In this document: piece by piece, positions 5,040 through 36,335 of the stretch
Layout: every line of letters begins with the position of its first letter
Position numbering within the stretch: the first letter of the stretch is position 1
NCBI GenBank assembly: GCA_002869535.1
Contig: PKUK01000006.1
Location: forward strand, 1 to 37,781
Origin: Arcobacter sp.
Lineage (GTDB): Bacteria; Campylobacterota; Campylobacteria; Campylobacterales; Arcobacteraceae
Length of the DNA: 37,781 bases
Reading direction: 5' to 3'
The notes under the pieces: model-generated
What the model saw: only the letters and a program-made list of their open reading frames with translations
What the model was told of the DNA's origin: nothing
Databases searched by the model: none
Program-made: the position numbers and the translations under genes

Positions 5040-5115
5040 GACCCCGTCGTCTAGTGGCCAAGGACGACAGGATTTCCTCCTGTAGACTCAAGTTCGAATC
5101 TTGATGGGGTCGCCA
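5040..5115 (+). tRNA. tRNA-Glu (anticodon UUC), CCA encoded
   Basis: The 76-nt sequence folds as a cloverleaf. The acceptor GACCCCG pairs with TGGGGTC, followed by discriminator G and an encoded CCA. The anticodon stem ACAGG/CCTGT holds a 7-nt loop ATTTCCT, so the anticodon is TTC. The T arm contains GTTCGAATC. It closely resembles the E. coli tRNA-Glu pattern. Its 3' 46 bp (from the anticodon loop to one base past CCA) are repeated at 13170-13215, so the gene served as the integration target and was regenerated by the inserted DNA. Confidence 0.95.
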
Positions 5116-5116
5116 A
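5071..5116 (+). repeat. attL-like site (tRNA-Glu 3' end)
   Basis: These 46 bp are identical to 13170-13215 and include the anticodon loop, T arm, acceptor 3' strand and CCA. The sequences diverge at once on both sides. This is the classic geometry of tyrosine-recombinase integration in the 3' part of a tRNA gene. Confidence 0.85.
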
Positions 5117-5185: not shown

Positions 5186-5207
5186 GGTGATACTTTTGGT
5201 GATATTT
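5186..5207 (+). repeat. Tandem GGTGATACTTTT doublet near the left att
   Basis: Two copies of a 12-bp unit (GGTGATACTTTT, then GGTGATATTT) lie 70 bases after the tRNA CCA. The same doublet type occurs at 13032 and, as GGGTAACACTTT twice, at 13284. Spacing and repetition suggest integrase arm-type binding sites (inference). Confidence 0.5.
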
Positions 5208-5580: not shown

Positions 5581-5635
5581 AGTTGTTTTATTTGAAATAT
5601 AATAATAAATTGAATTGAGGGAAAGGTGTATATTA

Positions 5636-8600
5636 ATGATTATTTTAAAAAAAGATATTGACACTTATGATAATATTTATAAGACAATTTTACGAATAAA
5701 AGAAGAGTTTAGAATTAATCAGGTTATTTCAATTATATTTCATAATAATATTAAATTTATTGACCCGTTATTTTTAATTTTAATTTTAAACTTACATGAT
5801 AAGTATAGAAATAAAAAAGTTTTAGTTATTGATATTTTAGATTTAGACTACTCCTCAGAAACTATTAAAGACTACGAAAATAAAAATAAGATTCAAGAAG
5901 AAAAAAATAAGAATTTTAATAGTAAAACTATTTCTATTGAAAAAAAAATTGATGAAAAAACAAACTTTAACTTCCCTCAAAAAGACAATAGACAACATCA
6001 TGTGTATAGGATGTTATTAGAATTTTTAGACACAGGTTATTTTGTTAAGGAAAAATTAAGCGATTTCAAATGGAATAAGTACATAAATGATTATGAAAAT
6101 AAATACTATAAAGATATTGAAAAACGGAATAAAGACTATCCTAAAATTCTTGCAAATAAAATTAATAAAAATGCAATTGTTGATAGTGATACTGAGGAAG
6201 TAATCTATAAAAATATATTTTTTTATTTTTCTAAAGAACATAATGATTCATTATTCCAAAATAATGATGAAACTAGACATTTATTACCTATATTTAAAAT
6301 TAATAATTTTTCTAAAGTATTATTTAATGATTCAATCCATTATAATGATATTTATACAAAAAAAGATGATAGAAAAGAGATTTTTGAAGGACTAATAAAA
6401 AATGTAAATGATGATTTTTCCAGGAAAGAGTTTGAAGATTATTTGGAAAAGATATTTAAAATAGTTAAACCAAATAATCAATCAAATAATTTAACTAATC
6501 TTATTCCTCCACTAAAAAACTTACTTTTTGAATGTATTGATAATATAAAAAAACACACAAATAAACATACGAATGGTTATTTCTGTTTTTACTATGATTC
6601 CGTAAATAAGCAATTTAAAATAATTATATATGATGATTTTACTGAAGGTTTTTTAAATACTTATAAGAAGACGCTAGAAGATGAATTGGTAGATTTAGAA
6701 AAAAGATTTGATATTACTAATGTGGATGAAAAAATAAAGAAACCTTTTTTAGATTCTATATTTGAATTAAATAAAGTTAAAAATCAAAATGATACTGAAA
6801 TAGATCATTTAATATTAAAGAAAATTTTTAATAAGAAAGGTGTTTTTGAAGCACATCAAATTCCCAGAATTATTATGCATTTTGGAATACCAACATTAGT
6901 TAAAATAATAAATGAAGTTGGAGGAGAATTTTTTATTAGGTTACATAGAAAAATAGATGAGAAAAAATCATTATATTATTGTTTAGATAATAAAAATAAT
7001 ATTAAAGATACTTCTATTAATGGATTAGATGGAACACATATATATATTACAATTCCAGAGAATGCAATATATAAGATGCGTAAGGCTCAGCCTTTAAATT
7101 TAAAAGATTCTGACTTAATTAATATTTCTGAAAAAAAAGAAATTATAGAAGAAAAAATAAAGAAGTTTATATCTATTAATGATACTAAAAATGAAAGTAA
7201 ATATCGTATACTTGATTATAATAATTATTTTGAGAAAAATCCAAATAATACAATAAGTGATTTTTTAAGAGATTTATATTATTTTTCCTATAAATTAAAT
7301 ATTCTAGATGTATTAGTGATTAATTTTCCAATAAAGGAATTTGAATTATATTTGCAAAACTTAGTTTATATACTATTTTTTAACAAAGAATATAATGAAG
7401 AATCAATTATTCCACTTAATGTTGTATTTTTCAATAAAACATCACTTGATATTGTATTTATTGGGGGGCGTAATTATTCTGAGTTTTATAATTCTAATAA
7501 ATTAATAAGCGAGCATTATGGTAAGTATTATAATAAAATTACGGATGTATTAATTGACACAAGTAATACTTTAAAAAACAATTACGCTACAACAGAGTTT
7601 TTTTATAAAACTAATAATGATATTGTAGTCCTTCCATTTGAGTTATATGAGAAATGTGAAGTATCAATTCAACATCTCATTATGAATAATTTAAATGATA
7701 ATAAACAATGCTTACATGTTGATGTAAAAAAAGGTATACATGTATCTGAATTTTATAAGTTTGATATTATCTTTCAAAGTTCACGTTTTATAGATAGAAT
7801 TGTACATAAAATTTTAGAAAGAATTAAGTTAACTATAGAAGATTTGGATAAAAAGAATATAAAATTTATTGGAGTTGGTAAATATTCAAATTTACTTTTA
7901 GCTACTCTTTACAGAAGTTTAAATAAAAATATAGATGAATATTATCTTGTTTTAGATGATTTAATAGATCAAAATGAACAAAACTGTCTTAATGAATATA
8001 TGGAAAATAATAAAGAAGCAGATGCTTTTTTTATTTTTACACCTGTAACATTTGATGGCACACATATTAAAAAAGAGATAATTAATAAATATAATAATCA
8101 ATTTATCTTTTGGATAAATACAATAGAAATCACACTAGAAACAGAAAATAAAGTAAATATCAATAATTACTACACTCTTTTGGAACTTCAATTAAAAAGT
8201 GAAAAATATTTTAAAGTAAATGAGAAGGAGGGATGTAAACTTTGTAATAGTGAGAATGAATTACCTTTATATAATATAAGTAAAAGAGATAATTTTTCAA
8301 TAGAAAATTGTTATTTTGACGATTATAAAAAGAAGAAATTAAAACCATATTTAGATATTAAAGATGTGAAATGGGCAGATTCAATATACTTCGGCCATAT
8401 AAAAAGAGATAACAATCATTATTTATACTATACAAAAACTATTCAGTTTTTTAATAGGAACAATGCTGAAATAGTCAATTTTCTGAAGTCAATTAAAATT
8501 AAAGTAAATGGACAATACAATATTTCTGAGAATGAAATAATAATTATAACACCAATGCATTCAACACATAATAAGTTTTTAACAGTAGTAAATACAATTG

Positions 8601-11263
8601 TCTTTGATGGAAGAGCTACAATACTACAAATTGATTTAAAAAAAGATGGTAATATCTTTTATAACGAAAATGATATTGAAGAAAATACACTGTTTTTTTA
8701 TGTTGATGATGAAATAAGCTCTGGAACAACAATTCAGCATATTTATACTTTATTTAAGAGTAATAATCAAATTAGACGTTTTAATGGAATTATAATATTA
8801 ATTGATAGGATGTTAGAACAAGATGAAAATAGTATTGAACACCTTATTGATTCCAAAATAACAAAAGCACATGAAGCTATTCATTTATTTGCAAAATTAG
8901 AAATAAAGCCTATAAAAACTACAAAATATGAAGAATGTTTTTTATGCAAAAGAAAAGAAGAATATAAAAAGCTTTTAGAATATACTGTATTGGATATAAA
9001 TAGATTTCAAATTGCAAAGAGAATTAGTAAGTTAAATATAATAAATCACACAACTATTGATTTTGAAGATGGACTGAATCAAAATAGTAGTAATAAGATT
9101 GATATTAATAGGAAAATTAAAGATTATATAAAAATGATTGCTGTTGATTATATTCACCGTAATTTTGACTTATTTAATAGAATATCAAATGGGAATTATG
9201 ATGAAATATTTAGAGAGTATATTACTCTTGAGAAAAAGTTTACTGATCTTATATACCCTAATATTATTAAATATTTTTATGTTATAAATAAATATGAAAA
9301 GATATTTATTCAAATTTGTGCTTTTGAAGCAAGCATTGCCTTAATTAAAGCATTATCTTTTCCAAAAATAGTTTATTTTAAAGAAATACGCTATTTGGCA
9401 ACAGTTGTTTTGATAAAAAAAATAGAAGAATATATCAAGAAAGAACCATTAGCAAATGTATTTGATAAAAAAATGATATCTCAACTAAGTAATGAACAAG
9501 AAAAAGAATCTAATAAGTTTTTTATACAAGAGTATAGTAATAAATTAAATATTAATTATATGAATGTTTTATATGTTACTGCAGGATATTTAAATATTCA
9601 AAATATACTAAATATTAAAAATTTAGAATATTATTTTAATGTTTCTATAGAAACCAAAGAAAAACAATATGAACACATTTTATTACAACCTTACCAATTT
9701 GCAGTAAAAATGGTCTCAATGCAAAGTATTGATAAATCAAAGTACCTTGATAAACAAATTGAACTATTTTTTCAATGTAGAGAAAATGTAGAAAAAGTAG
9801 ACTGTACAGATTACACTTTAATAGAAGCATTAACTATTGAAAATAATTATAGTATATCTAAAGATATATCTAGCGGAGTTAATTTCAGTGATAGGTTACA
9901 GTATCTTTTAAAAGATAGTGATAAAAGTCTTACTGAAAAAACCAGTAAATGTAAACTTTATATAGAAAAAGTTATTTATAATAACTTTAATGATAAAAGA
10001 AATGATATTAAAGTTGAAAGTATATTTATTAATGAGAATATATATACAAAGTATGACAAGTACGAATCTTACCTTGATAATTTAAAGTTCATAGATATAT
10101 TGGATAATTTTAATGAAATTGATGATGAAAATCCAAACTTAAAGTATATTAATAGAATTGTAAAAGGTGCATTATCTAAAAAGCCCGAAAAAGCAATGGA
10201 ACTTAAAGAAGATAGTATAACTAAAGAGATAGAAGATATTGATAATACATGGTCAAATATATATGTTCAAGACTTTCTTATTAATAGTGAAAATAAAAAT
10301 TCTTTATTGATAAGATTAGTTGATATTGATATTGAGAAATTGGATAACATAAAATATACTAAATCGATTGAAAACTTATGGTATAAACCTATAGGATGTA
10401 TGGCAATATCCTGTAGTGAAAATAAAATAGAATTATTAAATATTGCAAAAATTATTTTATCAATCCAAAATGATTTAGTAAAGTTTATTAAAGAAGAATT
10501 TAGTCATGAAACATTTAGAGAAATTTTAAAGAGAAAAGATGAAGAAAAAAGAAATGACGATATAGCAAAAGATTATGCGATGCAAATATCAGCTATAAAT
10601 CATTCTTTTAAAGATCAAATTGATTTAAGATCAAAAATTGATAGTTATTTGAATGGCACGATAAATAATGAACTTGAGAGAGATGAATATTTAAAATTAT
10701 TAGGTTACTTCTCATATGGATTACATCATTTATCATCATTAACTAGTGTTAAACCTAACAAAATGAAGAAGAGATTAACGTCAATAGATATAACTGATTC
10801 TTTAAATACATATATTCAAGATGGATTTTTTGACGGAATAACGAAATTTATTTCATCTACAAGATACTTCATGGATAACATAAATCAATATTTCTCAGAA
10901 GATTCACTAGATATTACAAGTTTAAATAGTGATTCTTTTAAATTGAATTTAGAACAGGTAGCTCACATGAGTCATATTTGTTTTGAACTTATTTTTAACG
11001 CTATCAAATATTATAACATTGATGAAAAAAAACCAGTAATTAAAATTTCTTCTTTAACTGATGGTGAAGGAATAATGGTAGAAAATATGGTGAAAGAAGA
11101 TTTTACTCTTGATGCCATGAATTTAAAATTAGAGAAAAAAAGTAGGATTGGAGTTAAGTTTATTGAAGAGATTTTAAATGACCAAGATTATATTATAGAA
11201 TATGAATTTATTGAAAGATATTTAAGTGTAATTATAAAAAAGGATAAAAATAATGACAAGTAA
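5636..11263 (+). CDS. Giant sensor: GHKL ATPase + PRTase-like core + C-terminal histidine kinase-like module
   Basis: About 1875 aa, with no signal peptide or membrane segments, so probably cytoplasmic. I chose ATG 5636 because AGGGAAAGG stands just upstream; a TTG seven codons earlier is less likely. Approximate layout: residues 1-75 are STAS-like in pattern; 296-308 form a GHKL N-box-like ECIDNIKKHT, with DGTHIYITI at 465-473; 740-820 resemble a weak phosphoribosyltransferase fold; 969-1035 form a clearer one with the PRPP-loop motif VDDEISSGTT. CKLC and CFLC flank this core and may bind zinc. The end looks like a histidine kinase: possible phospho-His about 1656 (NHSFKDQ), N-box ELIFNAIKY about 1784, G2-like IGVKFIEEIL about 1838; the G1 box is weak. 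The 11-bp overlap with the receiver-nucleosidase gene makes a sensor role likely. The exact trigger is unknown. Confidence 0.7.
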   Translation: MIILKKDIDTYDNIYKTILRIKEEFRINQVISIIFHNNIKFIDPLFLILILNLHDKYRNKKVLVIDILDLDYSSETIKDYENKNKIQEEKNKNFNSKTISIEKKIDEKTNFNFPQKDNRQHHVYRMLLEFLDTGYFVKEKLSDFKWNKYINDYENKYYKDIEKRNKDYPKILANKINKNAIVDSDTEEVIYKNIFFYFSKEHNDSLFQNNDETRHLLPIFKINNFSKVLFNDSIHYNDIYTKKDDRKEIFEGLIKNVNDDFSRKEFEDYLEKIFKIVKPNNQSNNLTNLIPPLKNLLFECIDNIKKHTNKHTNGYFCFYYDSVNKQFKIIIYDDFTEGFLNTYKKTLEDELVDLEKRFDITNVDEKIKKPFLDSIFELNKVKNQNDTEIDHLILKKIFNKKGVFEAHQIPRIIMHFGIPTLVKIINEVGGEFFIRLHRKIDEKKSLYYCLDNKNNIKDTSINGLDGTHIYITIPENAIYKMRKAQPLNLKDSDLINISEKKEIIEEKIKKFISINDTKNESKYRILDYNNYFEKNPNNTISDFLRDLYYFSYKLNILDVLVINFPIKEFELYLQNLVYILFFNKEYNEESIIPLNVVFFNKTSLDIVFIGGRNYSEFYNSNKLISEHYGKYYNKITDVLIDTSNTLKNNYATTEFFYKTNNDIVVLPFELYEKCEVSIQHLIMNNLNDNKQCLHVDVKKGIHVSEFYKFDIIFQSSRFIDRIVHKILERIKLTIEDLDKKNIKFIGVGKYSNLLLATLYRSLNKNIDEYYLVLDDLIDQNEQNCLNEYMENNKEADAFFIFTPVTFDGTHIKKEIINKYNNQFIFWINTIEITLETENKVNINNYYTLLELQLKSEKYFKVNEKEGCKLCNSENELPLYNISKRDNFSIENCYFDDYKKKKLKPYLDIKDVKWADSIYFGHIKRDNNHYLYYTKTIQFFNRNNAEIVNFLKSIKIKVNGQYNISENEIIIITPMHSTHNKFLTVVNTIVFDGRATILQIDLKKDGNIFYNENDIEENTLFFYVDDEISSGTTIQHIYTLFKSNNQIRRFNGIIILIDRMLEQDENSIEHLIDSKITKAHEAIHLFAKLEIKPIKTTKYEECFLCKRKEEYKKLLEYTVLDINRFQIAKRISKLNIINHTTIDFEDGLNQNSSNKIDINRKIKDYIKMIAVDYIHRNFDLFNRISNGNYDEIFREYITLEKKFTDLIYPNIIKYFYVINKYEKIFIQICAFEASIALIKALSFPKIVYFKEIRYLATVVLIKKIEEYIKKEPLANVFDKKMISQLSNEQEKESNKFFIQEYSNKLNINYMNVLYVTAGYLNIQNILNIKNLEYYFNVSIETKEKQYEHILLQPYQFAVKMVSMQSIDKSKYLDKQIELFFQCRENVEKVDCTDYTLIEALTIENNYSISKDISSGVNFSDRLQYLLKDSDKSLTEKTSKCKLYIEKVIYNNFNDKRNDIKVESIFINENIYTKYDKYESYLDNLKFIDILDNFNEIDDENPNLKYINRIVKGALSKKPEKAMELKEDSITKEIEDIDNTWSNIYVQDFLINSENKNSLLIRLVDIDIEKLDNIKYTKSIENLWYKPIGCMAISCSENKIELLNIAKIILSIQNDLVKFIKEEFSHETFREILKRKDEEKRNDDIAKDYAMQISAINHSFKDQIDLRSKIDSYLNGTINNELERDEYLKLLGYFSYGLHHLSSLTSVKPNKMKKRLTSIDITDSLNTYIQDGFFDGITKFISSTRYFMDNINQYFSEDSLDITSLNSDSFKLNLEQVAHMSHICFELIFNAIKYYNIDEKKPVIKISSLTDGEGIMVENMVKEDFTLDAMNLKLEKKSRIGVKFIEEILNDQDYIIEYEFIERYLSVIIKKDKNNDK

Positions 11264-12680
11264 ACAAATTAATATTTTAATTATAGATGACAAACCTAAA
11301 AATATTAGAACAGTTAGAAAGGTACTGAATAAAAATTTTGGTTTTTTAGATGAAAATTTATTTCCTAAAGATAAAGATATTCAGGGCTTTGTAGATGAAA
11401 TATCATCGTTTGTAAGTAGTAAAAGTAAAGCAGCACTTAAGAGATTTATAAAACAATATATTTATGATAATGATATAGACTTATTAATTTTAGACTTTGC
11501 ATTATCTGATGATGAAGCATTAGATGGCAATGATATAACCTCAACTAGTGGTTACAGTTTACTAGATGAATTCTTAGAAGATGAAAATTTATGGAAATTA
11601 CCAATAGTAGCATTTACTTTTTTACCATTAGAGGATATAAAGACAAAACATAAGGCTAGATATATTGCCACAATAAAAAAACAAGCATCAAATGAAAATG
11701 ATTTAATTACAGAACTAATAGCAGATCTAAAAAATTATGACAACTCAGTGTTGTATTCAATTCTATACCATGGTAACTTATATAAACAGCAAAAGGTAAT
11801 GAATTATGACTTAGCTATTTTATGTGCTTTGAAAGAAGAATTTGATGAAGTATTAAAATTACCTAATGAATGGAAAGGAAAAGAAATTAAAGATGTTGAT
11901 GATAATGGATGGAAAAAAGTTAAAGTAGAAAATGATACATATTTTGAGACAGTTTTCTTATCTTCTAAGAATCAACAAATTAGAGTTATTGGTAAAGCTA
12001 TGAATGATATGGGAATGGTTGAATCAGCAACTTACTCAACTAAAATGATTGATAACTTTAATCCTAAATATATCACAATGACAGGAATTGCAGCAGGTAT
12101 AAAGGATGACGATGTTGAAGTTGGAGATATTATTATCCCACAATATAATTGGAATTGGCAAGCAGGAAAATTTAAAACAATTTTAAGTGATGAGTTTGAT
12201 AAAGAAAAAAACAAGTTTAGAAAAAAAATTGTAACTTTTTTTGATAAAGATATGAGACAAAAAGAATTGGATACTGAAATTTACGATTTGGTTACACAAG
12301 AACTACAATCTAATAATGATTTCTTCAAAAACTTATTTGAGAATTTTTGTTCAGAATATACAGATTTCACTATACCAATTATTAGAGATAATAAAAAAAG
12401 AAATAGATATCCGCAAGTCATTACAGAAAAAATGGTTTCTGGCTCTGCAGTTGTTGCAGATAGTAAAGTAATTAATGAAATAAAACAAAGAAAAGTTGTT
12501 GGACTTGAAATGGAAGCATATGGTGTATTTTATGCAGCAAGTAAATCAAAAACTAAGGCTGTAGTTTTAAAAGCAATTTGTGATTTTGCTGATGAAGCTA
12601 AAGATGATGAATACCATACTTTTGCAGCTTATTCAAGTGCAAGAACTATGTATAAACTTTTTACAGAATATATATTTTGA
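11253..12680 (+). CDS. Response regulator receiver fused to nucleoside phosphorylase/nucleosidase
   Basis: A 475-aa protein. Residues 5-160 are a receiver domain: acidic pair D12-D13, phosphoacceptor D81 in LLILDFAL, T122 and K142. Residues 185-475 form a PNP_UDP_1 domain: E195/E196 near its start, TGIAAGIKDDDVEVGDIIIP at 277-296, VSGSAVVAD, GLEMEAYGVFYAA at 417-429, and D444 in CDFAD, matching the catalytic Asp of MTA/SAH nucleosidases. There is no DNA-binding domain, so phosphorylation should control an enzyme rather than transcription. In Detocs, a receiver-PNP protein cleaves ATP once its kinase senses phage; I infer similar action on ATP or another nucleotide. The start overlaps the sensor gene by 11 bp, indicating translational coupling. 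No stand-alone receiver (DtcB-like) gene is present. Confidence 0.85.
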   Translation: MTSKQINILIIDDKPKNIRTVRKVLNKNFGFLDENLFPKDKDIQGFVDEISSFVSSKSKAALKRFIKQYIYDNDIDLLILDFALSDDEALDGNDITSTSGYSLLDEFLEDENLWKLPIVAFTFLPLEDIKTKHKARYIATIKKQASNENDLITELIADLKNYDNSVLYSILYHGNLYKQQKVMNYDLAILCALKEEFDEVLKLPNEWKGKEIKDVDDNGWKKVKVENDTYFETVFLSSKNQQIRVIGKAMNDMGMVESATYSTKMIDNFNPKYITMTGIAAGIKDDDVEVGDIIIPQYNWNWQAGKFKTILSDEFDKEKNKFRKKIVTFFDKDMRQKELDTEIYDLVTQELQSNNDFFKNLFENFCSEYTDFTIPIIRDNKKRNRYPQVITEKMVSGSAVVADSKVINEIKQRKVVGLEMEAYGVFYAASKSKTKAVVLKAICDFADEAKDDEYHTFAAYSSARTMYKLFTEYIF

Positions 12681-13169
12681 TTTTTAATTAAAGTATGTAT
12701 ATATTGTAAGTAATATATAAAGATATTTATCTATATCCTTTATAACATAAGTATCCTATCCCTCTAAAGTTATTTGGTTTAAAAAATATAAACCAAGTGC
12801 TTTAACATCATCTGATGAATTTTTACACATGGTATTTGTTTTCTTATCAACTTTTTTCTAGTGAAAGTAAACTATCTTTCTAAATTAGAATTACAACTAA
12901 TGCATAATTTAGTGTGGAGGGGAAGAAGGTAATTATTATAAAGCTGCTTTTAATTATGATAATATATTTTAGTTTTAGTGAATTAATTACAATTGATGGC
13001 AGAATTGTTTTAATTTATTGTAATAATATAAGGTGATACTTTTGGTGATACTTTTGATTGTAAATTAATGTAAATTTATACTATCTATTCAATATTAAAA
13101 ACTTAAAAACTACCTATAAAATGGCATTTTACTGCCTATTTGTAAATTCATGTAATTATAAATCTTAAA
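12681..13169. other. Non-coding right end of the island, with hairpins
   Basis: I see no gene here. There are two inverted repeats: 12716-12744 (TATAAAGATAT with ATATCCTTTATA) and 12774-12796 (TTGGTTTA with TAAACCAA, 7-nt loop). Either could end the sensor/nucleosidase transcript, though neither has a good T-run. The perfect 12-bp doublet at 13032 follows, then the tRNA-Glu fragment. Confidence 0.5.
13032..13055 (+). repeat. Perfect GGTGATACTTTT tandem doublet inside the right end
   Basis: Two perfect 12-bp copies stand 114 bases before the right tRNA fragment, matching the doublet near the left end. This is a candidate arm-type recombinase site. Confidence 0.5.
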
Positions 13170-13215
13170 GATTTCCTCCTGTAGACTCAAGTTCGAATCT
13201 TGATGGGGTCGCCAA
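13170..13215 (+). repeat. attR-like partial tRNA-Glu copy
   Basis: This is an exact copy of the last 46 bp of the tRNA-Glu region, without the 5' half, so it is not a functional tRNA. It marks the right end of the island and could itself be the left att scar of a second element to its right. Confidence 0.85.
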
Positions 13216-14778: not shown

Positions 14779-15906
14779 TTATAAAACAATCTCATAACTA
14801 ATATTTCTACCAGCAGTTCCTTTTTTCTGTTTTATACAATTCTTTTCTAAAAGTTCAGCTAGATCTCTTGATGCAGTTGTTGAAGTTGTATCTGCAATAC
14901 TCATATATTTCTTTTTGCTAAGATTTCCTATAAAACTTTCTATTCCAATATCTAAAATAAAGTTAAGTACTTTTATTTGTCTAAGATTTAATTTCTTGTT
15001 TTTATTTCTATCCCAAAATTTTGTCTTTTGAACAATATGATTTAATCTATTTTTTGTATCAAGTAAAGCTTTGTATAACGTATTTAAAAACCACTCACAC
15101 CAAATAGTTATATCAAGATGATTATCTATTTTTTTGATGTATCCTGTTGTACTTTCTAAAGCTTTATAATAATTTTTTCTATCATCATTTATTGCACTTG
15201 ACATGGAGTAAAGTCTTGATATTTTTGAGTTCTCGATTTTTGATAAAACAAGGTCAGTAATAGCTCTTGAAATTCTTCCATTTCCATCATCAAATGGATG
15301 AATAATTACAAACCAAAGATGAGCAATACAAGCTTTTATTAAACTCTCTTTTGTACTATTAAACCAAGTTAAAAATTCATTCATTTCTTTCTCAAGTTTT
15401 TCTTTTGGAGGTGCTTCATAATAAACTATCTCTTTTCCTACAAATCCACTAACTATCTGCATAGTTTCATTTCCTCTAAAGTTTGCAGTATTGATTTTAG
15501 TTAATCCACTATAACCTTTTGGAAAAAGTGCATTGTGCCAACCAAATAATCTATCAAGTGTTAAACCATCATTATAATTTGTATTTGCATCAATAAGAAT
15601 TTCAACAAGATTATCAGTGCTTTCATCTGTTTTTTTATAATGCATCTCATCAAGTGCAAATTTTTTAGCAATAGAAGCTTTTACACTATCTCGATTTAAT
15701 ACTTCTCCTTCAATTGCTGCTGTACTTATAGTTTCATTTAGTAAGGTATCAAATTGTCTTTGAATAATATTGTCTTTATTCATAGTTTCGGTAAGTGCTT
15801 TTAAGTACCCTTGTTCTAAAGATATTTTTTGTATTAAATCTTCTAATTTTTTAGAATCATAAGTAAAATTTGGATAGTTATCTTGTTGCCAAATCCATCT
15901 TTTCAT
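14779..15906 (-). CDS. Fic family protein (AMPylase) with autoinhibitory motif and C-terminal winged helix
   Basis: A 375-aa protein. The N-terminal part (MKRWIWQQ...) fits the DUF4172-like domain of this Fic class. The inhibitory motif [ST]xxxE[GN] is TAAIEG at 62-67. The catalytic core is HPFDDGNGR at 203-211, fully conserved, so the enzyme should transfer AMP from ATP onto a target hydroxyl, held off by the inhibitory Glu (family knowledge). The last ~70 residues form a winged helix (LRQIKVLNFIL...SIADTTSTTASRDLAELLEK). Its own promoter region contains a 31-bp dyad, which suggests autoregulation by this domain. It stands alone on the minus strand. The targets are unknown. Confidence 0.9.
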   Translation of the reverse strand: MKRWIWQQDNYPNFTYDSKKLEDLIQKISLEQGYLKALTETMNKDNIIQRQFDTLLNETISTAAIEGEVLNRDSVKASIAKKFALDEMHYKKTDESTDNLVEILIDANTNYNDGLTLDRLFGWHNALFPKGYSGLTKINTANFRGNETMQIVSGFVGKEIVYYEAPPKEKLEKEMNEFLTWFNSTKESLIKACIAHLWFVIIHPFDDGNGRISRAITDLVLSKIENSKISRLYSMSSAINDDRKNYYKALESTTGYIKKIDNHLDITIWCEWFLNTLYKALLDTKNRLNHIVQKTKFWDRNKNKKLNLRQIKVLNFILDIGIESFIGNLSKKKYMSIADTTSTTASRDLAELLEKNCIKQKKGTAGRNISYEIVL

Positions 15907-19396: not shown

Positions 19397-20587
19397 TTGA
19401 AAATATTACATACATCAGATTGGCACTTAGGTCAAAATTTTATGGGTAAAAGTAGGGAGGGGGAGCATAAGGCTTTTCTATCTTGGCTTTTAGAGGTTAT
19501 TAAAGATAAGAAGATTAGAATATTACTTGTATCAGGAGATATTTTTGATACAGGAACTCCTCCCAACTATGCACTTGAACTTTACTATAACTTTTTAAAA
19601 CAATTATCCGCAGTCAAAACTTTAAAAACCACAATCATAACAGCTGGAAATCATGACTCAGTATCAACATTAAAAGCATCAAAACAACTCCTAGAAACAT
19701 TTAATGTACATGTAGTAGTGAATGGTGATGAAGATGAAAATATTATCATTCCAATAAAAGAAGATGAAGGTACCATAGCAATAGTTTGTGCAGTTCCATT
19801 TTTAAGAGATAATGTCATAAGACAATCTCTTGCTGGGGAAACTGTAAGTGACAAAGAGAAACTTGCAAACAATGGCATCAAAGCTTTTTATGAAACTGCA
19901 CACACAAAAGCACTTGAACTAAAACAAGATAAAAATATACCTCTCATAGCTATGGGACATCTTACAACTGTAGGAAGTCGGACTAGTGAGAGTGAAAGAG
20001 ATATCTATATAGGCGGTACACTTGATATTGGTGGAGATTATTTAGGAAGTCTTTTTGATTATGTGGCTTTAGGACATCTTCATATAAATCAAACAGTAGG
20101 CTGTGAGCATGTTAGATATTCCGGCAGTCCAATTCCACTTAGTTTCTCAGAATCAAAAAACACACAAAAAGTAAATCTAGTAACTTTTAATGAAAGTAAA
20201 GTAGAAGTAGAAGAGTTAGCTGTTCCACTTACTAGAAAGCTTATTGTTATTAAAGGTAACAGTGAGACTATAAAAAAAGAGCTTAAAAATATAGAAGATA
20301 AAAACTCTTGGATAGAAGTACATATAAAAGATGATAACCCAATGTATGCAAACACAGAGATAAGAGAACTGGCTTCAAAGTTAGAGCTTATATTATTAGC
20401 TGTAAAGATAGATAAAAGTGAAAAACAACTTCAAGCCAAAGAGCTAAAAGCCATAAGCTTAGATGAACTCTCTATTGATGAAGTATTTCAAAAAAGATTA
20501 GAGCAAGAAGAACTTGAAGATAAAGTGCTTGAAGTTGAGCTTGTAACTAACTTTAAACAAATAGTTTCAAAGGTACAAAGCCAATGA
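19397..20587 (+). CDS. sbcD: SbcD exonuclease subunit
   Basis: A 396-aa protein and the Mre11-type metallophosphoesterase of the SbcCD complex, which cuts DNA hairpins and protein-blocked ends. Metal-binding motifs are in place: DWH (8-10), SGDIFD (D48), GNHD (85-88), MGHLTT and GHLHI. The length is normal for the family. The start is TTG directly at MKILHTSDWH; no ribosome site is visible before it. It overlaps the sbcC start by four bases (ATGA). The upstream ~150 bp and first ~65 codons have a decayed second copy at 5230-5580. Its partner sbcC is interrupted, so SbcD may lack an ATPase subunit. Confidence 0.93.
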   Translation: MKILHTSDWHLGQNFMGKSREGEHKAFLSWLLEVIKDKKIRILLVSGDIFDTGTPPNYALELYYNFLKQLSAVKTLKTTIITAGNHDSVSTLKASKQLLETFNVHVVVNGDEDENIIIPIKEDEGTIAIVCAVPFLRDNVIRQSLAGETVSDKEKLANNGIKAFYETAHTKALELKQDKNIPLIAMGHLTTVGSRTSESERDIYIGGTLDIGGDYLGSLFDYVALGHLHINQTVGCEHVRYSGSPIPLSFSESKNTQKVNLVTFNESKVEVEELAVPLTRKLIVIKGNSETIKKELKNIEDKNSWIEVHIKDDNPMYANTEIRELASKLELILLAVKIDKSEKQLQAKELKAISLDELSIDEVFQKRLEQEELEDKVLEVELVTNFKQIVSKVQSQ

Positions 20588-23500
20588 AAATATTAAAAGT
20601 AAAATCACTGAACATAAACTCACTAAAAGGTGAGTTTGAAATAGACTTTCAAGCATTTTTAAAAGATGAATCTCTTTTTGCTATAACTGGACCGACAGGG
20701 TCTGGAAAAAGTACAATTCTTGATATTATAACCTGTGCATTGTATGGTAAAACTACTAGATTAACTAGTCCTCCAAATGAGCTTATGAGTCGGCATACTT
20801 GGGAATCATTTTGTTAAGTAGAGTTTGAAGTTAAGGGTAATATTTATCGAAGTTCTTGGAGTCAGAAAAGAGCAAGAAAGAGTGCAGATGGGAACTTTCA
20901 AACTGCAAAGATGGAAATAGTAGATTTAGCTACAAATAAAATACTTGAGTCAAAAGTAAGAGAAGTTCCAAAAGTCATAGAAGAGATATCTGGACTTGAT
21001 TTTGATAGGTTTTCTAGGTCAATGATGTTAGCACAAGGTTCTTTTGATGCTTTTCTTAAATCAGATGTAAATGAGCGATCAACTCTTCTGGAAAAAATAA
21101 CAGGGACACAAATATACAAACAAATTTCACAACAAGTTTTTGAAACATATTCAACAAAGAAAAAAGATATCGAGTTGGATGAAAATTCTTTAGGAAGTAT
21201 TGAATTACTTGAAAAAGAAGTAGTAGAAGAGAAAACAAAACTTCTAGAAGCTTCAAAAAAACAAAAAATTCAATTAGATACAAAAGAAGTAGCACTCAAA
21301 AAACTAGCATCATGGCTTGAAGTGTTATCTAAATTAAAAGCTGATGATATTAGGTATACACAAGAATTTGAGCAAATCACAAAAGAGAAAGAGGATAAAA
21401 AAGAAGATTTTTTAAATCTTAAATTGGCAAACAAAGCACTAAATGTACAATCAATTTATCAAGAAAAAAACTCATTAACTAAAATAATAGATATAGATAA
21501 ACAAAAACTTGAGATACAACAAAAAGATTTAGAAGAGCTAAAAAAAATAATAGAGTCAAAAACAAATGAATCTAAAATATTAAAAGAAAATTTTGATAAA
21601 GAAAAAATATCTTATGAGCAAAACTCTAAAAAGCTACAAGAAGTAAGAACTCTACAAACAAAGATACAATCAAAACTTCAAAACATAAATGAGCTTGAAT
21701 CTAAAATCAAATCAAATCAAGAAGAAAAAACTAAAATAAATGATGAGTTAGTAAAAGTAAAATCAACGCAGCAAAATATCCAAAAAGAGTTAGAGACTAT
21801 AAATAGTTATTTAGATACCAATAAAAATGATTCATTTTTAAAAGAAGATATCTCTTTGATATCAAAAAACATAAATGATTATAAAGATGGAACTAGATCT
21901 TTAGCTGAGTGTGAAGCAAAATTACAAAAAACAATATTAGATAAAAAGAGTTTAGAAGAACAATACAATAAAACAAAAAAAGAGTTTGAAGAAGCTAAAA
22001 CTGCATTTGAATTAAAAGATAAAGAGTACAAAGAATTAGAAATTAAATCATCAGCTAACAATAAAAAAGAGCAAGAAAATCGAGATAGATTAAAGACTAT
22101 AGATAAGTTGATAGTCTCTATAGATGATTATGAAAAACTCATACAAAATATCTCGAAAGAAGAGGGTGTAATTTCTTCATCAAATGAAGAACTAAAAAGT
22201 TTACAATCAAAAATAGAAGAAAAAACAAAACTCATAACTGAACTTCAAACGCATATTCAAACACTAAATGAAAAAAGAGAAGCACAACTTCTAATTGCAA
22301 AATATGAAAACGATAGAGAAAAACTAAAAGAGGGTGATTAATGCTATCTTTGTGGTTCAACTGAACATCCCTATGTAGATCATAGGATAAGTGTTAATGT
22401 AGATGATACAAGATTTAAAATCAATGAAAAAAAACAAAACTTAGAAGATGAAAGCAAGACATTAAGAACACATGAATTATCTCTTTCAAAACTTGAATCA
22501 AAAATAGAAACATCTACTTTAGAAAGAGATAAATTATTAAAAAATAAAGAAACTATTGAGAGTATCTTTAACTCATATAATTTTATATTAGTAGAAGATT
22601 CAAAGATAAATTTAGAAGAAGAAAAGTTAGTAAAAGAAAATGAGCTTAGTAAAATAGTAGAACAAAGAACTAAAAAAGAGCTATTACTAACACAAAGAGA
22701 TAATTTACAAACAGAGTTAAACACAAAACAAACTTTAGCTTCTGAAAAAGAGAAAGAATTTTATAAACTAAAGACTTCAAAAGAACAATTTGAAACTGAA
22801 CAGAAACAAAACATATCTAAAAAGCAAATATTAGCTGAAGAACTTACAAAGGTATATAGTAAATACAATATTTCATTTGATGAAACATACGAAGAGAAGT
22901 TTAATACAATAGTAAATAGAAAAGATGAATATATTAAAAATGAATTATCAAAAAAAGAGTACGACACCAAACTACAAACTATCCTAGTGGAGCAAAAAGA
23001 GTTCGATACGAAAATTTCATCGATAGATGCAACACTAAAAAAAGATAGTGAAGACTTATCAAAACAATCAGAAGAACTAAAAGAGTTACAAACACAAAGT
23101 AAATCTATACTTGATATAGATGATTTAGAAAAGTATGAAAAAGATATAAGTGATAGTTTTAACGCTATTACTACAAAATATAATACTTTACAAAACGAAA
23201 TGATAAATCTAAATTCAAAAATTGAATCACTGAATACTCAAATAAAAGAATTAACTCAAAAACAAAACACTGACAATACAAAACTAGAAGAGTTAAAACA
23301 AAGTTTTGAAAAGGCTTTAGAAGAAAATAGTTTTGGCTCAACCCAAGAGTTTGAAAAAGCACTTTTAAGTAAAGAAAAAAGAGAAGAATTATCTCAAACT
23401 TGTAAACTAATAGAAGAAAAATATACACAAATCAAGACACTTAAAAATGATACAACTAAAAAATTAAAAGAACAAAAAGAGTTAAATCTAACAGACAGAG

Positions 23501-24171
23501 AACTCGAAAGTATAAATGATGAACTAAAAGAGTTCCAAGCAACTATAGATGAACTTCAAAAGTCTATAGGAAGTGCAGAAAAGGAGCTTGAGATAAATGC
23601 ATCAAATATCAAAAAACATGAAGATAAAATTAAAGAGTTAGAAAAGAAAAAACAATCTTTCAAAGTATGGGTAAAACTAAATGACATGATAGGTTCAGCT
23701 ACTGGTGATAAGTTTGCTAAATTTGCCCAAGGTATAACACTAGACCAACTAATCTACCTAGCAAACAAACATCTAAATATTTTAAGCCCTAGATATGAAC
23801 TTCAAAGAAGTATAGACTCAAATAAACTATTAGAGATAGAGATAATAGATGGCTTTCAAGGTGATGTGGTAAGACCTGTAAGTACTCTCTCAGGTGGAGA
23901 GAGTTTTATAGTAAGTCTATCTTTAGCCTTAGGACTATCGAGCCTAGCTAGTCAAAAGATAAGTATAGACTCACTTTTCTTGGATGAAGGATTTGGAACA
24001 TTGGATAGTGATAGTTTAGAGCTAGCATTAAATGCGCTAAATCAATTACAAAGTTCAGGAAAAATGGTAGGTGTGATTTCCCATGTGGAAGCACTAAAAG
24101 AGCGAATTCCATTGCAGATTAGGGTTATACCCAAAGGAGATGGAACAAGTTTTCTAAGCACCAGTTTTTAG
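20584..24171 (+). pseudogene. sbcC: sbcC broken by two in-frame TAA codons
   Basis: One frame of 1195 codons encodes a full SbcC/Rad50-like ATPase, except for TAA at codon 78 (20815-20817) and codon 586 (22339-22341). The reading frame is the same before and after both, and there is no indel. Walker A is GPTGSGKST near residues 37-45. The first stop follows MSRHTWESFC and precedes VEFEVKG, where relatives have Glu. The second stop replaces the residue just before the zinc hook CYLCGSTEHP. Long coiled coils surround the hook. The C-terminal signature TLSGGESF, Walker B DSLFLDEGFGTLD and switch His VISHV are intact. It could yield fragments, since internal starts exist, but a full protein requires readthrough. 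Recent inactivation or a sequence error are the simplest explanations. Confidence 0.9.
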
Positions 24172-24577: not shown

Positions 24578-25573
24578 TTATACACTACCACAAGCTTTTT
24601 TATAAAATTCTTTATCATATTGGGTGTCATTTTTATATAAAGAATAAGCAATAATTATCATCTTTCTCATAACTGCTATTTGTGCTAAAGTTGTATGTTT
24701 TCCATTTGATTTTAATCTCTCAAAAAAGTTTTTAAAGTTTTCATCGTATCTAATGGCAGTCATTACTCCCATAAATAAACTTCCTCTATATACTCTTGAA
24801 CCTGCTTTTGAGATTTTTGATTTCTTATGAACAGATGTTCCAGATGTTTTTTCTATTGGGTCAAGTCCAGAGAGTGAAACTATTTGTCTTTGATTTGCTT
24901 TTGGATATTTAATAAATAGATAAAGCAATACTATAGCTCCTACTTCTCCTATGCCATATACTGATTTAATATTATTATACCCTTTTAATAATTTATTATC
25001 TGAGTTAATAATATCCTTTATTTTATTGAGTATTTCAATCTCTTTGTTTTTTGATATTTTAAGAGATTTTTTTAAATCATTAATCATATACTTACTGCCA
25101 TCTTTTACTGTTACAGCTTCTAGTTGATTAATTAGTTTAGAGCTACTTTTAGTAGTGAATTTATAATATGATATTAACTCTTTTAGCTCTTCAACTATAG
25201 TATCAATATAAGGTACTTTAATCTCATCATCTTTTGCTAAAGGAATAGCTTGTGATAATACTTGTGCATCTATCAAATCTGTTTTATTTCTTTGTCCTAA
25301 AGCCTTTGAGAAGTTAGAAAATTGTTTAGGGTTAATAAGGAAACATTTAATATTTTTTTCATTACAAAATTTTGTTAAAGCAAAAGAATAGTTACCTGTT
25401 GGTTCAAAAATAAAAACCAAATTATCAATATCTTTTTTATAAAGTTTATTTAACTTTGAATATAAACCTTTTAAACCTTTTACATTATTCTCAATTTCAA
25501 TATTTGCTTTGTTAATAGGTATATGTACTGCAATTAATTTTTTACTAATATCTAATCCGATACAATTAATCAT
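24578..25573 (-). CDS. IS110-family transposase (DEDD, serine-assisted)
   Basis: A 331-aa protein. The N-terminal RuvC-like DEDD domain shows D8 (IGLDISKK), E57 (FIFEPTGNY), and D99/D102 (KTDLIDAQ). The C-terminal transposase_20 domain has YGIGEVGA (a helix-hairpin-helix-like motif), SLSGLDPIEKTSGTS with the candidate catalytic Ser, and KAGSRVYRGSLF. Length and order match complete IS110 enzymes, which recombine a circular form guided by a bridge RNA. A strong ribosome site GGAGG is present before the ATG. It lies inside the WYL-like gene, in the opposite orientation. It appears intact and possibly active. Confidence 0.93.
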   Translation of the reverse strand: MINCIGLDISKKLIAVHIPINKANIEIENNVKGLKGLYSKLNKLYKKDIDNLVFIFEPTGNYSFALTKFCNEKNIKCFLINPKQFSNFSKALGQRNKTDLIDAQVLSQAIPLAKDDEIKVPYIDTIVEELKELISYYKFTTKSSSKLINQLEAVTVKDGSKYMINDLKKSLKISKNKEIEILNKIKDIINSDNKLLKGYNNIKSVYGIGEVGAIVLLYLFIKYPKANQRQIVSLSGLDPIEKTSGTSVHKKSKISKAGSRVYRGSLFMGVMTAIRYDENFKNFFERLKSNGKHTTLAQIAVMRKMIIIAYSLYKNDTQYDKEFYKKACGSV

Positions 25574-25964: not shown

Positions 25965-28040
25965 ATGGCAATTATAAATATTAAAAACTGTAATAGTATA
26001 GACGAAGCAAGTGTAACTATAGAAAGTGGTAGATTAAATATAAAATATGGAATTAATGGAACGGGAAAGAGTACAATTGCAAAAGCTATTAAGTTTCATA
26101 ATGAGCCAGAATTTTTAAATGAATTATTGCCATTTAAGTATTTTGAAGAAAATCTTGATAATAAGCAACCTTTAGTTACAAGTGTGGAAAATTATCAAAA
26201 TATAATGATGTTTAATGAAGATTATATTAATCAATTTGTATTTAAAAAAGATGAATTACTTGAAAATAGTTTTGAAATCTTTATTAAAGATGAAAAATTT
26301 GATGAAAATCTATCTAAAGTAGAATTATTATTTTCTCATGTGAAAAATACATTTCAATCAAATGAAAATTTGACTAAGATTTTAACTGATTTAAACGAAT
26401 TAAGTAATTCTTTTAGTAAGACAAAAGGTGGAGTTGCACAAAATAGCATAATAATGAAAGCATTAGGTGAAGGTAATAAAATTGATAATATCCCTGAAGG
26501 CTTAGAAGAATATTAAGATTATTTAAAAAGTGATAAAAATACGGCTTGGATAAAATGGCAATCTTCAGGAAAAGGATTTTTGGAAATTGCAGATAAATGT
26601 CCTTATTGTACTTCTTTAATTAAGACAAAAAAAGAGACAATAGAAAGAATATCAACTGAATATAATGATAAATCAATAGGACATTTATTAAAAATAATTG
26701 AAGTAATGGCAAGCTTAAAAGAATACTTTACTGATGAATCTCAGAAAACAATAGAAAAAGTTACAAAAAATAAGATTGGCTTAAATGATGCAGAAATCGA
26801 GTTTTTAAAGGGTATTTATAATCAGATTAATGTATTAATTAAACAATTGTCACAATTACAATACCTTGCTATATTTACCTTTAAAAATGTTGACGATATG
26901 TCTGAAAAAATAAATGAACTTAAAATAGATTTAGATTTAGTTCCTGCATTAAAGTCATCTGCAACAGAACTTATAATTAGTCCCTTAAATGAATCCTTAG
27001 AAGAGTTACTTAGTAAAGTTGATGAACTTAAAGGAAAAATGAAAAAGCAAAAACAATCAGTAGTTAAAAAAATAGAGAATTACAAAAATGAAATAAATGA
27101 ATTTCTTAAATATGCTGGGTATAAATATGTTATAGATATAGAAGAAGTAAATGAAGAGTACAAACTAAGATTACAGCATTCAGATATATCATCTTTTGTA
27201 GAAAATGGAAATCAACATTTAAGTTATGGTGAAAAGAATGCATTTGCATTGATGTTATTTATGTATGATTGCCTATCCAAGAATCCAGATTTAATTATTC
27301 TTGATGATCCAATATCATCATTTGATAAAAATAAAAAATTTGCAATAATAGATAGACTTTTCAGGGGTGAAAAATCTTTTAAAGGTAAAACAGTACTCTT
27401 GTTAACACATGATATAGACCCTATAATTGACATGTTTAAAGTGTTATATGGAAAGATAGAACCTGTTCCTGTCGCATCCTTTATAAAATCAAGAAATGGT
27501 ATGATAGAAGAAATACCAATATTAAAAGACGATTTACAAACTTTTGCGCAAGTATGTGATGAAAATATTTCAACTTCTAGTGATGATATTAATAAATTAA
27601 TTTATCTTAGAAGATATTTTGAAGTTTTAGATGATAAAGGTGTATCTTATCAACTTCTAGCAAGTCTTTTTCATAAAAGAGATACTCCTACCAAGTTTAC
27701 AGATAATGGTGAAGAGGATATGACTTTAGATGAAATAACAGATGCTACAAATAAAATCAATGAAAAAATAGAGAACTTTGTATATAGTGAACAATTATTA
27801 AAAATGAAGGACTTAAACAATTTAAAATCAATATATGGTTGTGCTGATAATGATTATGAAAAACTTCAATTATTTAGATTAATATATGAAGGTAGACATC
27901 CTAGTGATGTAGTTCAGAAGTTTATTAATGAAACATTTCATATTGAAAATGAATATGTTAGTCAATTAAATCCTAAAAAATATGAAATTATCCCTGAATT
28001 TATTATTCAAGAATGTGATAGATGTATTTTAAGTAATTAA
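25965..28040 (+). pseudogene. AAA_13-type ATPase (RloC/COG4694-like) with one in-frame TAA
   Basis: The frame of 691 codons is open except for TAA at codon 184 (26514-26516); the frame is unchanged after it. The ATPase parts are all present: Walker A GINGTGKST (29-37), a CPYC motif like a zinc hook, coiled-coil middle, ABC signature LSYGEKNAFAL, Walker B LIILDDPISSFD, and switch LLTHD. The C-terminal ~200 residues contain YEGRHPSDVVQKF and FHIENEY. AAA_13 proteins such as RloC and PrrC pair this ATPase with an RNase, but I cannot confirm a nuclease here. It begins 15 bases after the WYL-like gene, so the two were likely one operon before the IS110 insertion. Confidence 0.8.
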
Positions 28041-33641: not shown

Positions 33642-36335
33642 ATGGATAAAGACAAATATTTAATATTTATAGATAATAAGAATAAGACTGAAGAAATTGA
33701 AAAAGTTTCATCTCCTAATGAATCAAAAGTTAAAATAAAATTTTATAGTAATAGCACAAATTATACCTATGGTAAAGAAAAAGTAACTATTTTTAAAAAT
33801 CCAAAAGAAATTGATGCAACATCATGTTTGGTTTATTTAGATGGTTCATATTTATCTAATATTGTGAAGCTTCTTGATTTTAAAGATTATATAAGAATTT
33901 ACTATAAAAATGGTAAAGAAAATGTATATGAAAAAAGCCGTATAGTTATTGAAAAGAATGTGTTGGCGGATGGCAATTCAAAGCAAGTATTAGGCTATTT
34001 AAAGGAGTTGGCAGAAAATATTGATACTGAAAATGATTTTTTATTTAAACAATATAAAAAAATAGTACAACTTAGTGAAAAGAGTATTTTATCTAAATAC
34101 TTAAATCCATCCAAAATAGATTCATTTAAAAATAGTTCTTCAAATATATTTCCTTTTGGCTTTAATTTAAGTCAAGAAACTGCAGTATCAAAAGCTTTAA
34201 CTAATCAAGTAAGTATCATAGAAGGACCTCCTGGCACTGGAAAAACACAGACTATATTGAATATCTTAGCTAATATTATTATGGAAGAAAAAACAGTTGC
34301 CATTGTATCAAATAATAATGCAGCAACAATGAATGTTTTTGATAAACTTAAAAAGTATGATTTGTCTTTTATATCTGCTTTTTTAGGAAATAATGATAAC
34401 AAAGAAGATTTTTTCAATAATCAAAACCTTATATACCCTAACTTTGCAGATATTATTAACAATGATTCAGACATAAATAAATCTCGTGCAGATATTGAAA
34501 ATGATACAAACTTATTAAAAGAAATGTTATCAGCACAAAATCAAATTGCAATATTAAATCAAGTGCTTGAAGAATTACTACTTGAAAAAAAATATTTTTT
34601 AGAATTATATGAAAAAAGAAATATCAAAGCTAAAAAATATATGAGTTTTTTTAAAGATACTTCTAAAAAAACTTTATCTTTATGGGCAGATTTTGAGTAT
34701 ATCCAGACTACTAATAAAAGTATGTCTCTTTTTTTTAAAATAAAGAATCTATTTAAATATGGAATATTCTCATTTTCTTTTTATAAATATTCAATTGATA
34801 CAATAATTTTATCATTACAAAATACTTTTTATTTACTCAAAGAAAAAGAGTTGAAAAATGAAATATCAACTCTAAAAAAATCACTAACAGAGTTTGATTT
34901 TGAAAATGCTATGATACTTCATAGTAAAAAATCTATGATACTTTTTAAAACATTTTTATCTAATAAATATCAATTATTAAATAAACGAAAAGATTTTAAA
35001 AGTGATTCATTATGGAAGGACTTTAAGACTTTTATAGATGAGTATCCAGTGGTTTTAAGTACAACACATTCTTTGATAAATTGTACAGGAAAGAATTTTT
35101 TATACGATTATTTAATTATTGATGAATCTTCACAAGTTGATATTGTATCTGGATCATTGGCTTTGTCTTGTGCAAAAAATGTTATTGTAGTAGGTGACTT
35201 AAAGCAATTACCTCATATTGTAAATGAGAAATCAGCAGAAATTGTAGAAACTATTTTTAATAAATATAAAATAAACCCATTTTATCATTACCAAAACAAT
35301 CTATTGTTATCAATTTCCAATATCTTTAAAGATGCACCCAAAATTTTATTAAAAGAGCATTATCGTTGTCATCCAAAAATCATAGGATTTTGTAATAAAA
35401 AATTCTATAATAATGAGTTGGTGATATTAACAAAAACTATAAATGAAAATGAGGTGCCACTTGTTTTATATAAAACTGTTGATGGAAACCATTCAAGGGG
35501 AAAATATAATCAACGTCAAATTGATGTAATCAGAAATGAAATTTTACCAACAATTATTAGTGATAATATAGGGATAATATCTCCTTTTAGAATGCAAGTA
35601 AATAAATTAAATAAAGAAATTGAAACAAATTCCAGTATAGAGGTTGATACTGTCCATAAATATCAAGGTCGTGAAAAGAATATCATTATTATTACAACTG
35701 TAGTTGATGATCAAAATGAATTTGCAGACAATTTAAATTTATTAAATGTTGCTATTTCTAGAGCAGTTGATAAACTATATGTAGTAGTTTCGGATGATGA
35801 GAAAAATAAAAATATGAAAGATTTAGTTAACTATATAAGGTATAATAATTATGATATAAAAGAAAGTAAAATATATTCAATATTTGATTTACTGTATCAA
35901 AATTATGCCCCATATTTAAATACATATTTGAATAAACTCAAAAAAGTGTCCCAATACAAATCAGAAAATTTAATGAATATTGTAATTGAAAATGTTTTAA
36001 GCAATGATGAATTCCACTATTTAGGTGTTTTTCTAAATTATTCATTAAATAAAATAATAAAAGATACTAATTTACTAAATGATGAAGAGAAAACTTTTGT
36101 GGAGAATCCATGGTCTCATATTGATTTTATAATATATAGTAAGATTAATAAACAAATTGTATTGGCTATAGAGGTTGATGGTTGGGCATTTCATGAAAAT
36201 AATCCTAAGCAATTAAAAAGAGACAAGATTAAAGATGGTATTTTAAATAAATATGATATTCCATTGATTAGATTTGCTACTAATGGTAGTGGGGAAGAAG
36301 AAAAATTATTTAAAATGTTAAAAAATATACTGTAG
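33642..36335 (+). CDS. SF1 (UPF1/Dna2-like) helicase with C-terminal nuclease-like domain
   Basis: An 897-aa protein. Helicase motifs in order: EGPPGTGKT (I, about 194-202), YLIIDESSQ (II, D494-E495), VVGDLKQLPH (III), EHYRCHPKII (IV), DTVHKYQGREKNIIIITT (V), and NLLNVAISRA (VI). This is the full set for a UPF1-like helicase. The C-terminal ~100 residues hold HIDFIIYSK and LAIEVDGWAFH...RDKIKDGIL, a DUF2726/VSR-type restriction-endonuclease-like domain. Such helicase-nuclease fusions are common in phage defence loci. It is the last gene of the cluster and is followed by a strong bidirectional terminator. The sequence appears intact. Confidence 0.88.
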   Translation: MDKDKYLIFIDNKNKTEEIEKVSSPNESKVKIKFYSNSTNYTYGKEKVTIFKNPKEIDATSCLVYLDGSYLSNIVKLLDFKDYIRIYYKNGKENVYEKSRIVIEKNVLADGNSKQVLGYLKELAENIDTENDFLFKQYKKIVQLSEKSILSKYLNPSKIDSFKNSSSNIFPFGFNLSQETAVSKALTNQVSIIEGPPGTGKTQTILNILANIIMEEKTVAIVSNNNAATMNVFDKLKKYDLSFISAFLGNNDNKEDFFNNQNLIYPNFADIINNDSDINKSRADIENDTNLLKEMLSAQNQIAILNQVLEELLLEKKYFLELYEKRNIKAKKYMSFFKDTSKKTLSLWADFEYIQTTNKSMSLFFKIKNLFKYGIFSFSFYKYSIDTIILSLQNTFYLLKEKELKNEISTLKKSLTEFDFENAMILHSKKSMILFKTFLSNKYQLLNKRKDFKSDSLWKDFKTFIDEYPVVLSTTHSLINCTGKNFLYDYLIIDESSQVDIVSGSLALSCAKNVIVVGDLKQLPHIVNEKSAEIVETIFNKYKINPFYHYQNNLLLSISNIFKDAPKILLKEHYRCHPKIIGFCNKKFYNNELVILTKTINENEVPLVLYKTVDGNHSRGKYNQRQIDVIRNEILPTIISDNIGIISPFRMQVNKLNKEIETNSSIEVDTVHKYQGREKNIIIITTVVDDQNEFADNLNLLNVAISRAVDKLYVVVSDDEKNKNMKDLVNYIRYNNYDIKESKIYSIFDLLYQNYAPYLNTYLNKLKKVSQYKSENLMNIVIENVLSNDEFHYLGVFLNYSLNKIIKDTNLLNDEEKTFVENPWSHIDFIIYSKINKQIVLAIEVDGWAFHENNPKQLKRDKIKDGILNKYDIPLIRFATNGSGEEEKLFKMLKNIL

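Follow-up and report, generated by a model that had tools for sequence, protein, structure and literature searches.

Detocs is a family of three-gene systems, whose best-described member carries a purine nucleoside phosphorylase (PNP) effector that cleaves ATP (PMC11249213). Canonical Detocs-type operons occur on Aliarcobacter faecis and Klebsiella plasmids, and their three genes are recognized by the PADLOC profiles PDC-M60A, PDC-M60B and PDC-M60C; from this gene content, which fits the published description, we infer that PDC-M60 is Detocs. The plasmid operons encode a sensor (DtcA) of 1132–1159 amino acids (aa), a receiver of 152 aa and a receiver-PNP protein of 397–403 aa, and their DtcA proteins score 2.5e-78 and 1.9e-82 against PDC-M60A. 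We know of no signal that has been assigned to Detocs. Here we analyzed a locus in a 37,781-nucleotide stretch of an Arcobacter sp. genome (contig PKUK01000006.1, in the following called the window), where the gene of a giant sensor histidine kinase is followed by that of a receiver fused to a nucleosidase of the PNP superfamily. The best reading of this pair is a new Detocs-like subtype, which differs from canonical Detocs in the sensor family and in the missing DtcB. An earlier note on this DNA had described two open reading frames (ORFs) with a sensor of ~1875 aa, a response regulator with a PNP-type nucleosidase output following Detocs-type logic, no separate phosphate-sink receiver, and the pair as the only cargo of an 8.1-kb tRNA-Glu island. 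All of these points held up.

The output protein was assigned through its nucleosidase part. PNP_UDP_1 of Pfam matches residues 187–474 with an E-value of 6.9e-17, and the PADLOC profile PDC-M60C (DtcC) matches the protein at 1.4e-60, so that the fusion of receiver and PNP nucleosidase characteristic of DtcC is present. The receiver domain alone is divergent and stays below the Pfam cut-off (0.34), while a profile of its family finds CheY at 7e-5 and the canonical Detocs receivers at 1.5e-7. The acceptor Asp of the receiver (D81), the Glu of the PNP ME-x-YG motif (E421) and a catalytic-type Asp (D444) are invariant. The operon of the sensor thereby contains a cognate receiver with an acceptor Asp, as in a two-component system; the two ORFs overlap by 11 nt and both are intact. 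Across 104 Arcobacteraceae genomes we found four canonical DtcC copies below 1e-115 and two variants at about 1e-60, one in the window and one of Aliarcobacter type (G060), both paired with a giant sensor. A clean gap separates these variants from canonical DtcC, and a further gap lies between them and ordinary receivers and nucleosidases. By sequence comparison the output family is classed as DtcC-like and not as a housekeeping methylthioadenosine/S-adenosylhomocysteine (MTA/SAH) nucleosidase.

The C-terminal third of the sensor is a histidine kinase. It contains both a candidate phospho-acceptor, H1656, and an ATPase domain with N1788, and the two residues are invariant in the family. HATPase_c matches the sensor homologue L014 at 4.5e-10, the sensor family profile retrieves, at 3.4e-5, one of the genome's ordinary histidine kinases, and in a local profile test of the C-terminal kinase two genuine kinases ranked first and second of 77 proteins. 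Foldseek matches of the C-terminal model were DesK, AgrC, HK853 and similar proteins; structural alignment of the kinase core reached Z scores of up to 9.9 over 111 residues with a root-mean-square deviation (rmsd) of 2.6. The kinase belongs to a family other than DtcA: comparison of the sensor with DtcA by hhalign gave a probability of 0.7%, PADLOC returned no match to the sensor (none to PDC-M60A at an E-value of 1), and no sequence in the PDB matched the sensor or its family profile.

The likeness to Detocs lies in the predicted signalling from a sensor histidine kinase to a receiver-PNP protein, in the conserved receiver Asp and PNP Glu and Asp, and in the mobile setting. The differences are these. 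The sensor has 1875 aa, contains phosphoribosyltransferase (PRTase)-like folds and is unrelated or very remote to DtcA, which spans 638–1165 aa in the operons read; the receiver carries an inserted segment that DtcC lacks; and the DtcB phosphate-sink receiver is missing. We found no stand-alone receiver in the island, adjoining the pair or beside its 66% identical homologue (L006), and no DtcB beside the sensor at any sensor locus read. In addition, other members of the giant-sensor family drive outputs other than PNP. With neither a DtcA-type sensor nor DtcB, membership in canonical Detocs was rejected.

The pair is located on an island of 8,099 bp framed by exact 46-bp repeats of the tRNA-Glu, and no repeat of this kind occurred in shuffles of the window. 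No ORF of at least 50 aa exists in the island outside the two genes (Table). GC content of the island is 22.5%, compared to about 29% at 13 other loci of the same genome and 27% in the rest of the window. No integrase is encoded inside the island; the integrases of the source genome sit on other contigs, and the island may be mobilised in trans. Since this tRNA-Glu is occupied by other material in both congeners investigated, the site is an integration hotspot; an empty site was found in neither of the two. In congener G001 the segment measures 5.1 kb, lacks an integrase and encodes an ABC-3C conflict system comprising alpha/beta hydrolase-CTD8, MC4 and AAA genes (L038, G001:C1:1449800-1456500). 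Congener G002 has an ICE-like (integrative and conjugative element-like) element of roughly 31 kb, in which conjugation-type genes are accompanied by a tyrosine integrase. The ABC-3C segment resembles our island as a small defence-type cargo without integrase between the same tRNA-Glu repeats, although its genes are unrelated. The sensor gene was not found in either congener.

Table. Positions of the features in the window (nucleotides; residue numbers refer to the respective protein).
Feature	Position	Strand	Basis
tRNA-Glu (TTC), integration site	5040–5115	+	ARAGORN
att-like direct repeat, copy 1 (tRNA-Glu 3' end)	5071–5116	+	exact 46-bp repeat, 8,099-bp spacing
22-bp inner repeats GGTGATACTTTTGGTGATA	5186–5207 (left); 13032–13053 and 13044–13065 (right, overlapping)	+	repeat search
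Giant sensor histidine kinase, 1875 aa from ATG	5636–11263	+	ORF; alternative TTG start at 5615
Compact alpha/beta N-terminal domain, residues 1–95, STAS-like	5636–5920	+	strand/helix order; tentative
GHKL-like ATPase fold 1 (weak), residues 290–475	6503–7060	+	motif order
PRTase-like fold 1, without canonical PRPP loop, residues 675–860	7658–8215	+	structure only
CxxC pair 1 (C867, C870)	8234–8245	+	invariant, 7/7
PRTase-like region 2, residues 960–1090, with PRPP-loop motif VDDEISSGTT (1023–1032, nt 8702–8731)	8513–8905	+	sequence
CxxC pair 2 (C1101, C1104)	8936–8947	+	invariant, 7/7
GAF/PAS-like sensory domain and signalling helix, residues about 1459–1620	10010–10495	+	strand/helix order; tentative
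Histidine kinase core: H1656 (nt 10601–10603), catalytic ATPase domain 1731–1870 with N1788	10601–11245	+	invariance, profiles, folds
Receiver-nucleosidase, 475 aa	11253–12680	+	ORF
Receiver domain, D12/D13, phospho-acceptor D81 (nt 11493–11495)	11253–11747	+	family profile, invariant D81
PNP-superfamily nucleosidase output, E421 and D444 (nt 12582–12584)	11811–12674	+	PNP_UDP_1, PDC-M60C, invariant residues
att-like direct repeat, copy 2	13170–13215	+	exact copy of last 45–46 tRNA-Glu bases

In the middle of the sensor the earlier note had seen a PRTase-like core with the motif VDDEISSGTT, a phosphoribosyl pyrophosphate (PRPP) loop, between CxxC pairs. Motif and pairs were recovered as described and the predicted structure contains a PRTase fold; the PRTase part is larger than had been supposed, as a further PRTase-like fold lies upstream. 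Top Foldseek matches of the model of residues 1–1160 (mean pLDDT 58) are nearly all hypoxanthine PRTases with a probability of 1.00. In VIA-align, which reports the strongest domain of each model only, the best match of the block at 675–860 (pLDDT about 50–82) is PurR of B. subtilis with cPRPP (Z 11.1, 154 aligned residues, rmsd 3.8), followed by Xpt and APRT at Z 10–11; the PurR matches are bound to cPRPP or ppGpp. In profile comparisons with PRTases of the same genome this first region did not stand out clearly from controls. For the second region the situation is reversed: a profile of residues 900–1110 ranked a gpt-like PRTase of the same genome first of 94 proteins, with the PRPP loops in register and a probability of 79%, and PRTase_2 gave weak matches in three of six sensor family members (best E-value 0.0027). 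All six fuller family members have DDxISSG, while the loop is degenerate in the partial homologue L024 (VDDSIASSHT). Hence the type I PRTase fold is found in a model of modest confidence, and a PRPP loop with two acidic residues and Ser/Thr/Gly in the sequence. There are probably two PRTase-like units in the sensor; the first is recognized from structure only and the second mainly from sequence, and profile comparison shows no similarity between the two regions. Because the invariant CxxC pairs frame the second region, its sequence suggests a metal-bound unit. PurR, Xpt and APRT share with the sensor the fold at 675–860 and the acidic loop motif; they differ in that the sensor domains are fused inside a histidine kinase, with CxxC pairs around region 2 and no DNA-binding domain. 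PRTase proteins are also known from an anti-phage setting in type III retrons, where the PRTase acts as effector in a system built on a reverse transcriptase (PMC12548924) and not, as here, as part of a sensor kinase.

The sensor family is rare. Including the source genome in each count, it was present in 3 of 397 genomes of the phylum, 4 of 399 of the order and 5 of 104 of the family. Its members were found only in Campylobacterota, within which our searches were centred, and none were found in plasmids, phages or IMG/VR. One relative is 66% identical (L006, an Aliarcobacter metagenome-assembled genome), four share about 27–36% identity and one is partial (L024). Across these relatives the sensor keeps a receiver partner and exchanges the output, as is typical of defence systems. 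The closest relative retains a receiver-PNP protein (61% identical) in an intact pair of another genus. Downstream of three other sensors (G016, G074, G289) the receiver carries a helical tail of another, uncharacterised kind; in G011 the genes after the sensor encode a receiver and, separately, a small membrane protein. This swapping of outputs was not part of the earlier note, which had looked to a linkage of homologues to mobile or defence regions. Such linkage exists: the closest pair adjoins GajA/GajB (Gabija), a PDC-S71-like gene and a resolvase, and a HepT-like/nucleotidyltransferase (MntA-type) pair lies directly upstream of the homologue in G289 (L020:12412-13129).

Taken by sequence and structure, the pair is likely a Detocs-like two-component system acting in abortive infection or triggered by stress. 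A change caused by infection would be registered by the input part of the sensor, that is, the PRTase-like folds, CxxC pairs and GAF-like domain. The C-terminal kinase would then autophosphorylate on His1656 and phosphorylate the receiver at Asp81, and the fused PNP nucleosidase would thereby be switched on. Cleavage of the N-glycosidic bond of purine nucleotides, ATP or dATP by analogy with Detocs, would halt phage production and abort the infection. Damping could be achieved by phosphatase activity of the kinase or by fast receiver turnover. This proposal draws on the DtcC-like output, the kinase core, the receiver, the PRTase fold, the translational overlap, the exchange of outputs behind a constant receiver partner and the patchy distribution of a low-GC cargo, as well as on defence linkage, in which Gabija, the HepT-like pair and ABC-3C at the same tRNA-Glu are joined by SoFic-, PDC-S06- and Mokosh-like genes in the window. 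Several points weigh against it. Since DtcB is missing, the damping known from Detocs must be absent or replaced. The sensor has neither a PADLOC match nor clear profile similarity to DtcA, and the relatives in G011 and G016 sit amid ordinary housekeeping genes. The structure models are of modest confidence (mean pLDDT 58 and 51), and the proposal is built on sequence and predicted structure.

What the input recognizes divides the explanations further. As a refinement of the Detocs-like proposal, the PRTase module may sense PRPP or purine nucleotides directly in the manner of PurR, reading a pool disturbed by the phage before the nucleosidase collapses it. Judged from the models this is attractive and plausible, with PurR bound to cPRPP or ppGpp, Xpt and APRT as structural neighbours, an intact acidic loop motif in the second region and an output acting on the same class of molecules; we hold it as a possibility only, because a fold in common does not establish a ligand, the upstream fold is without canonical loop or sequence support, and the same sensor family drives outputs that have no link to nucleotides. 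A bolder version is slightly more doubtful still: a nucleotide-state alarm in which tandem PurR-like PRTase folds within a histidine kinase would read phage-disturbed PRPP or purines and, through a His-Asp relay without sink, set off destruction of the purine pool by the nucleosidase, with the sensor as a general module wired to several killing outputs. Many defence sensors detect phage proteins. The PRTase-like domains might accordingly serve as scaffold or bait for a phage protein or nucleic acid instead of a small molecule, with unchanged signalling, as the great length of the sensor and its long, poorly modelled regions would allow; we rate this no higher than direct sensing, since the acidic residues of the PRPP loop and the CxxC pairs are strictly kept at about 30% identity, which argues for a small-molecule or metal site.

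It is also conceivable that the pair is a metabolic or stress-related two-component system that happens to reside on a mobile island, its nucleosidase recycling or adjusting purines without any anti-phage role. Metabolic sensing often makes use of GAF-like and PRTase-like inputs, and among solved structures MTA/SAH nucleosidases are the closest relatives of the output protein. We consider this unlikely, as the output is DtcC-like and not of the housekeeping type, outputs are swapped among relatives, and island location, defence neighbours and absence of the sensor from the congeners do not fit. An inactive remnant on an island that lost its integrase would explain the missing integrase gene and is highly improbable: both ORFs are intact, catalytic residues are conserved and an intact homologous pair (66% and 61% identity) exists in another genus. 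For the Detocs-like proposal, a DtcC-like output together with a sensor containing metabolite-binding folds leads to a specific and directly testable hypothesis, in which levels of PRPP, purines or alarmones act as the trigger. The family further suggests that defensive two-component systems can be built from unrelated sensors and controlled without a DtcB sink. Several candidate outputs, so far uncharacterised, come with it.

Some of these outputs showed features of their own. In G011 (L007:3622-4636) the receiver C-terminus RVINLYGDSKYIEKMDGNINE and the N-terminus of the membrane protein RKINLYDKSKYIEKLNGDINE share a 21-aa motif with 15 of 21 positions identical (score 77; 1000 shuffles reached 55 at most). 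Amyloid-type signalling motifs pair receptors with effectors (PMC12261475), and by resemblance a hand-over of this type from receiver to membrane effector is possible. Two tRNA-Asn genes adjoin the same homologue, L007; a tRNA-Asn island was rejected here as no downstream repeat was present. The C-terminal halves of the receivers at L003:463-1485 and L014:144-1190 are homologous (score 106, reached in 0 of 500 shuffles) and match no Pfam family; from their sequence they could represent a new effector. In the genome G074 a canonical DtcC next to a receiver (C337) coexists with a giant-sensor locus whose output differs (C25).

Further parts of the sensor were assigned more tentatively. Phytochrome GAF-PHY-HK chains appeared among the Foldseek matches, and residues 1459–1620 form the better-modelled part of the C-terminal half, so that a GAF/PAS-like domain may precede the kinase core; this domain was not noticed earlier. 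The first 60 residues are modelled with pLDDT of about 72–84, and no database match was obtained for the N-terminal domain. Of the two GHKL-like regions claimed in the earlier note, the C-terminal one is the kinase described above, while the N-terminal one at 290–475 is weakly supported by its motif order. It shows invariant E299, N303, H307, D333, G338 and G466 and a GTxIxIxxP motif, with a weak HATPase_c match in L024 (E-value 0.12); in a profile test of this region controls scored as high. Inside the island, the 22-bp repeats could be recombinase arm sites or the remnant of a lost integrase gene.

Elsewhere in the window we noticed additional defence-type genes. Just past the right end of the island, 14779–15906 encodes a SoFic-like Fic protein (PADLOC, 2.8e-38). 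A PDC-S06/AAA_13 ATPase is distributed over two ORFs at 25965–28040, of which 26580–28037 matches PDC-S06 at 3e-189 (profile positions 206–688), and an IS110-type element is located just upstream (24578–25573); the split gene is probably a disrupted defence gene. At 33642–36335 a helicase-like protein of 897 aa matches MkoC/MkoA of Mokosh at 7e-52. The region 19397–24168 contains a gene for an SbcD-like nuclease, with genes for a coiled-coil protein and an SbcC Walker-B protein nearby.

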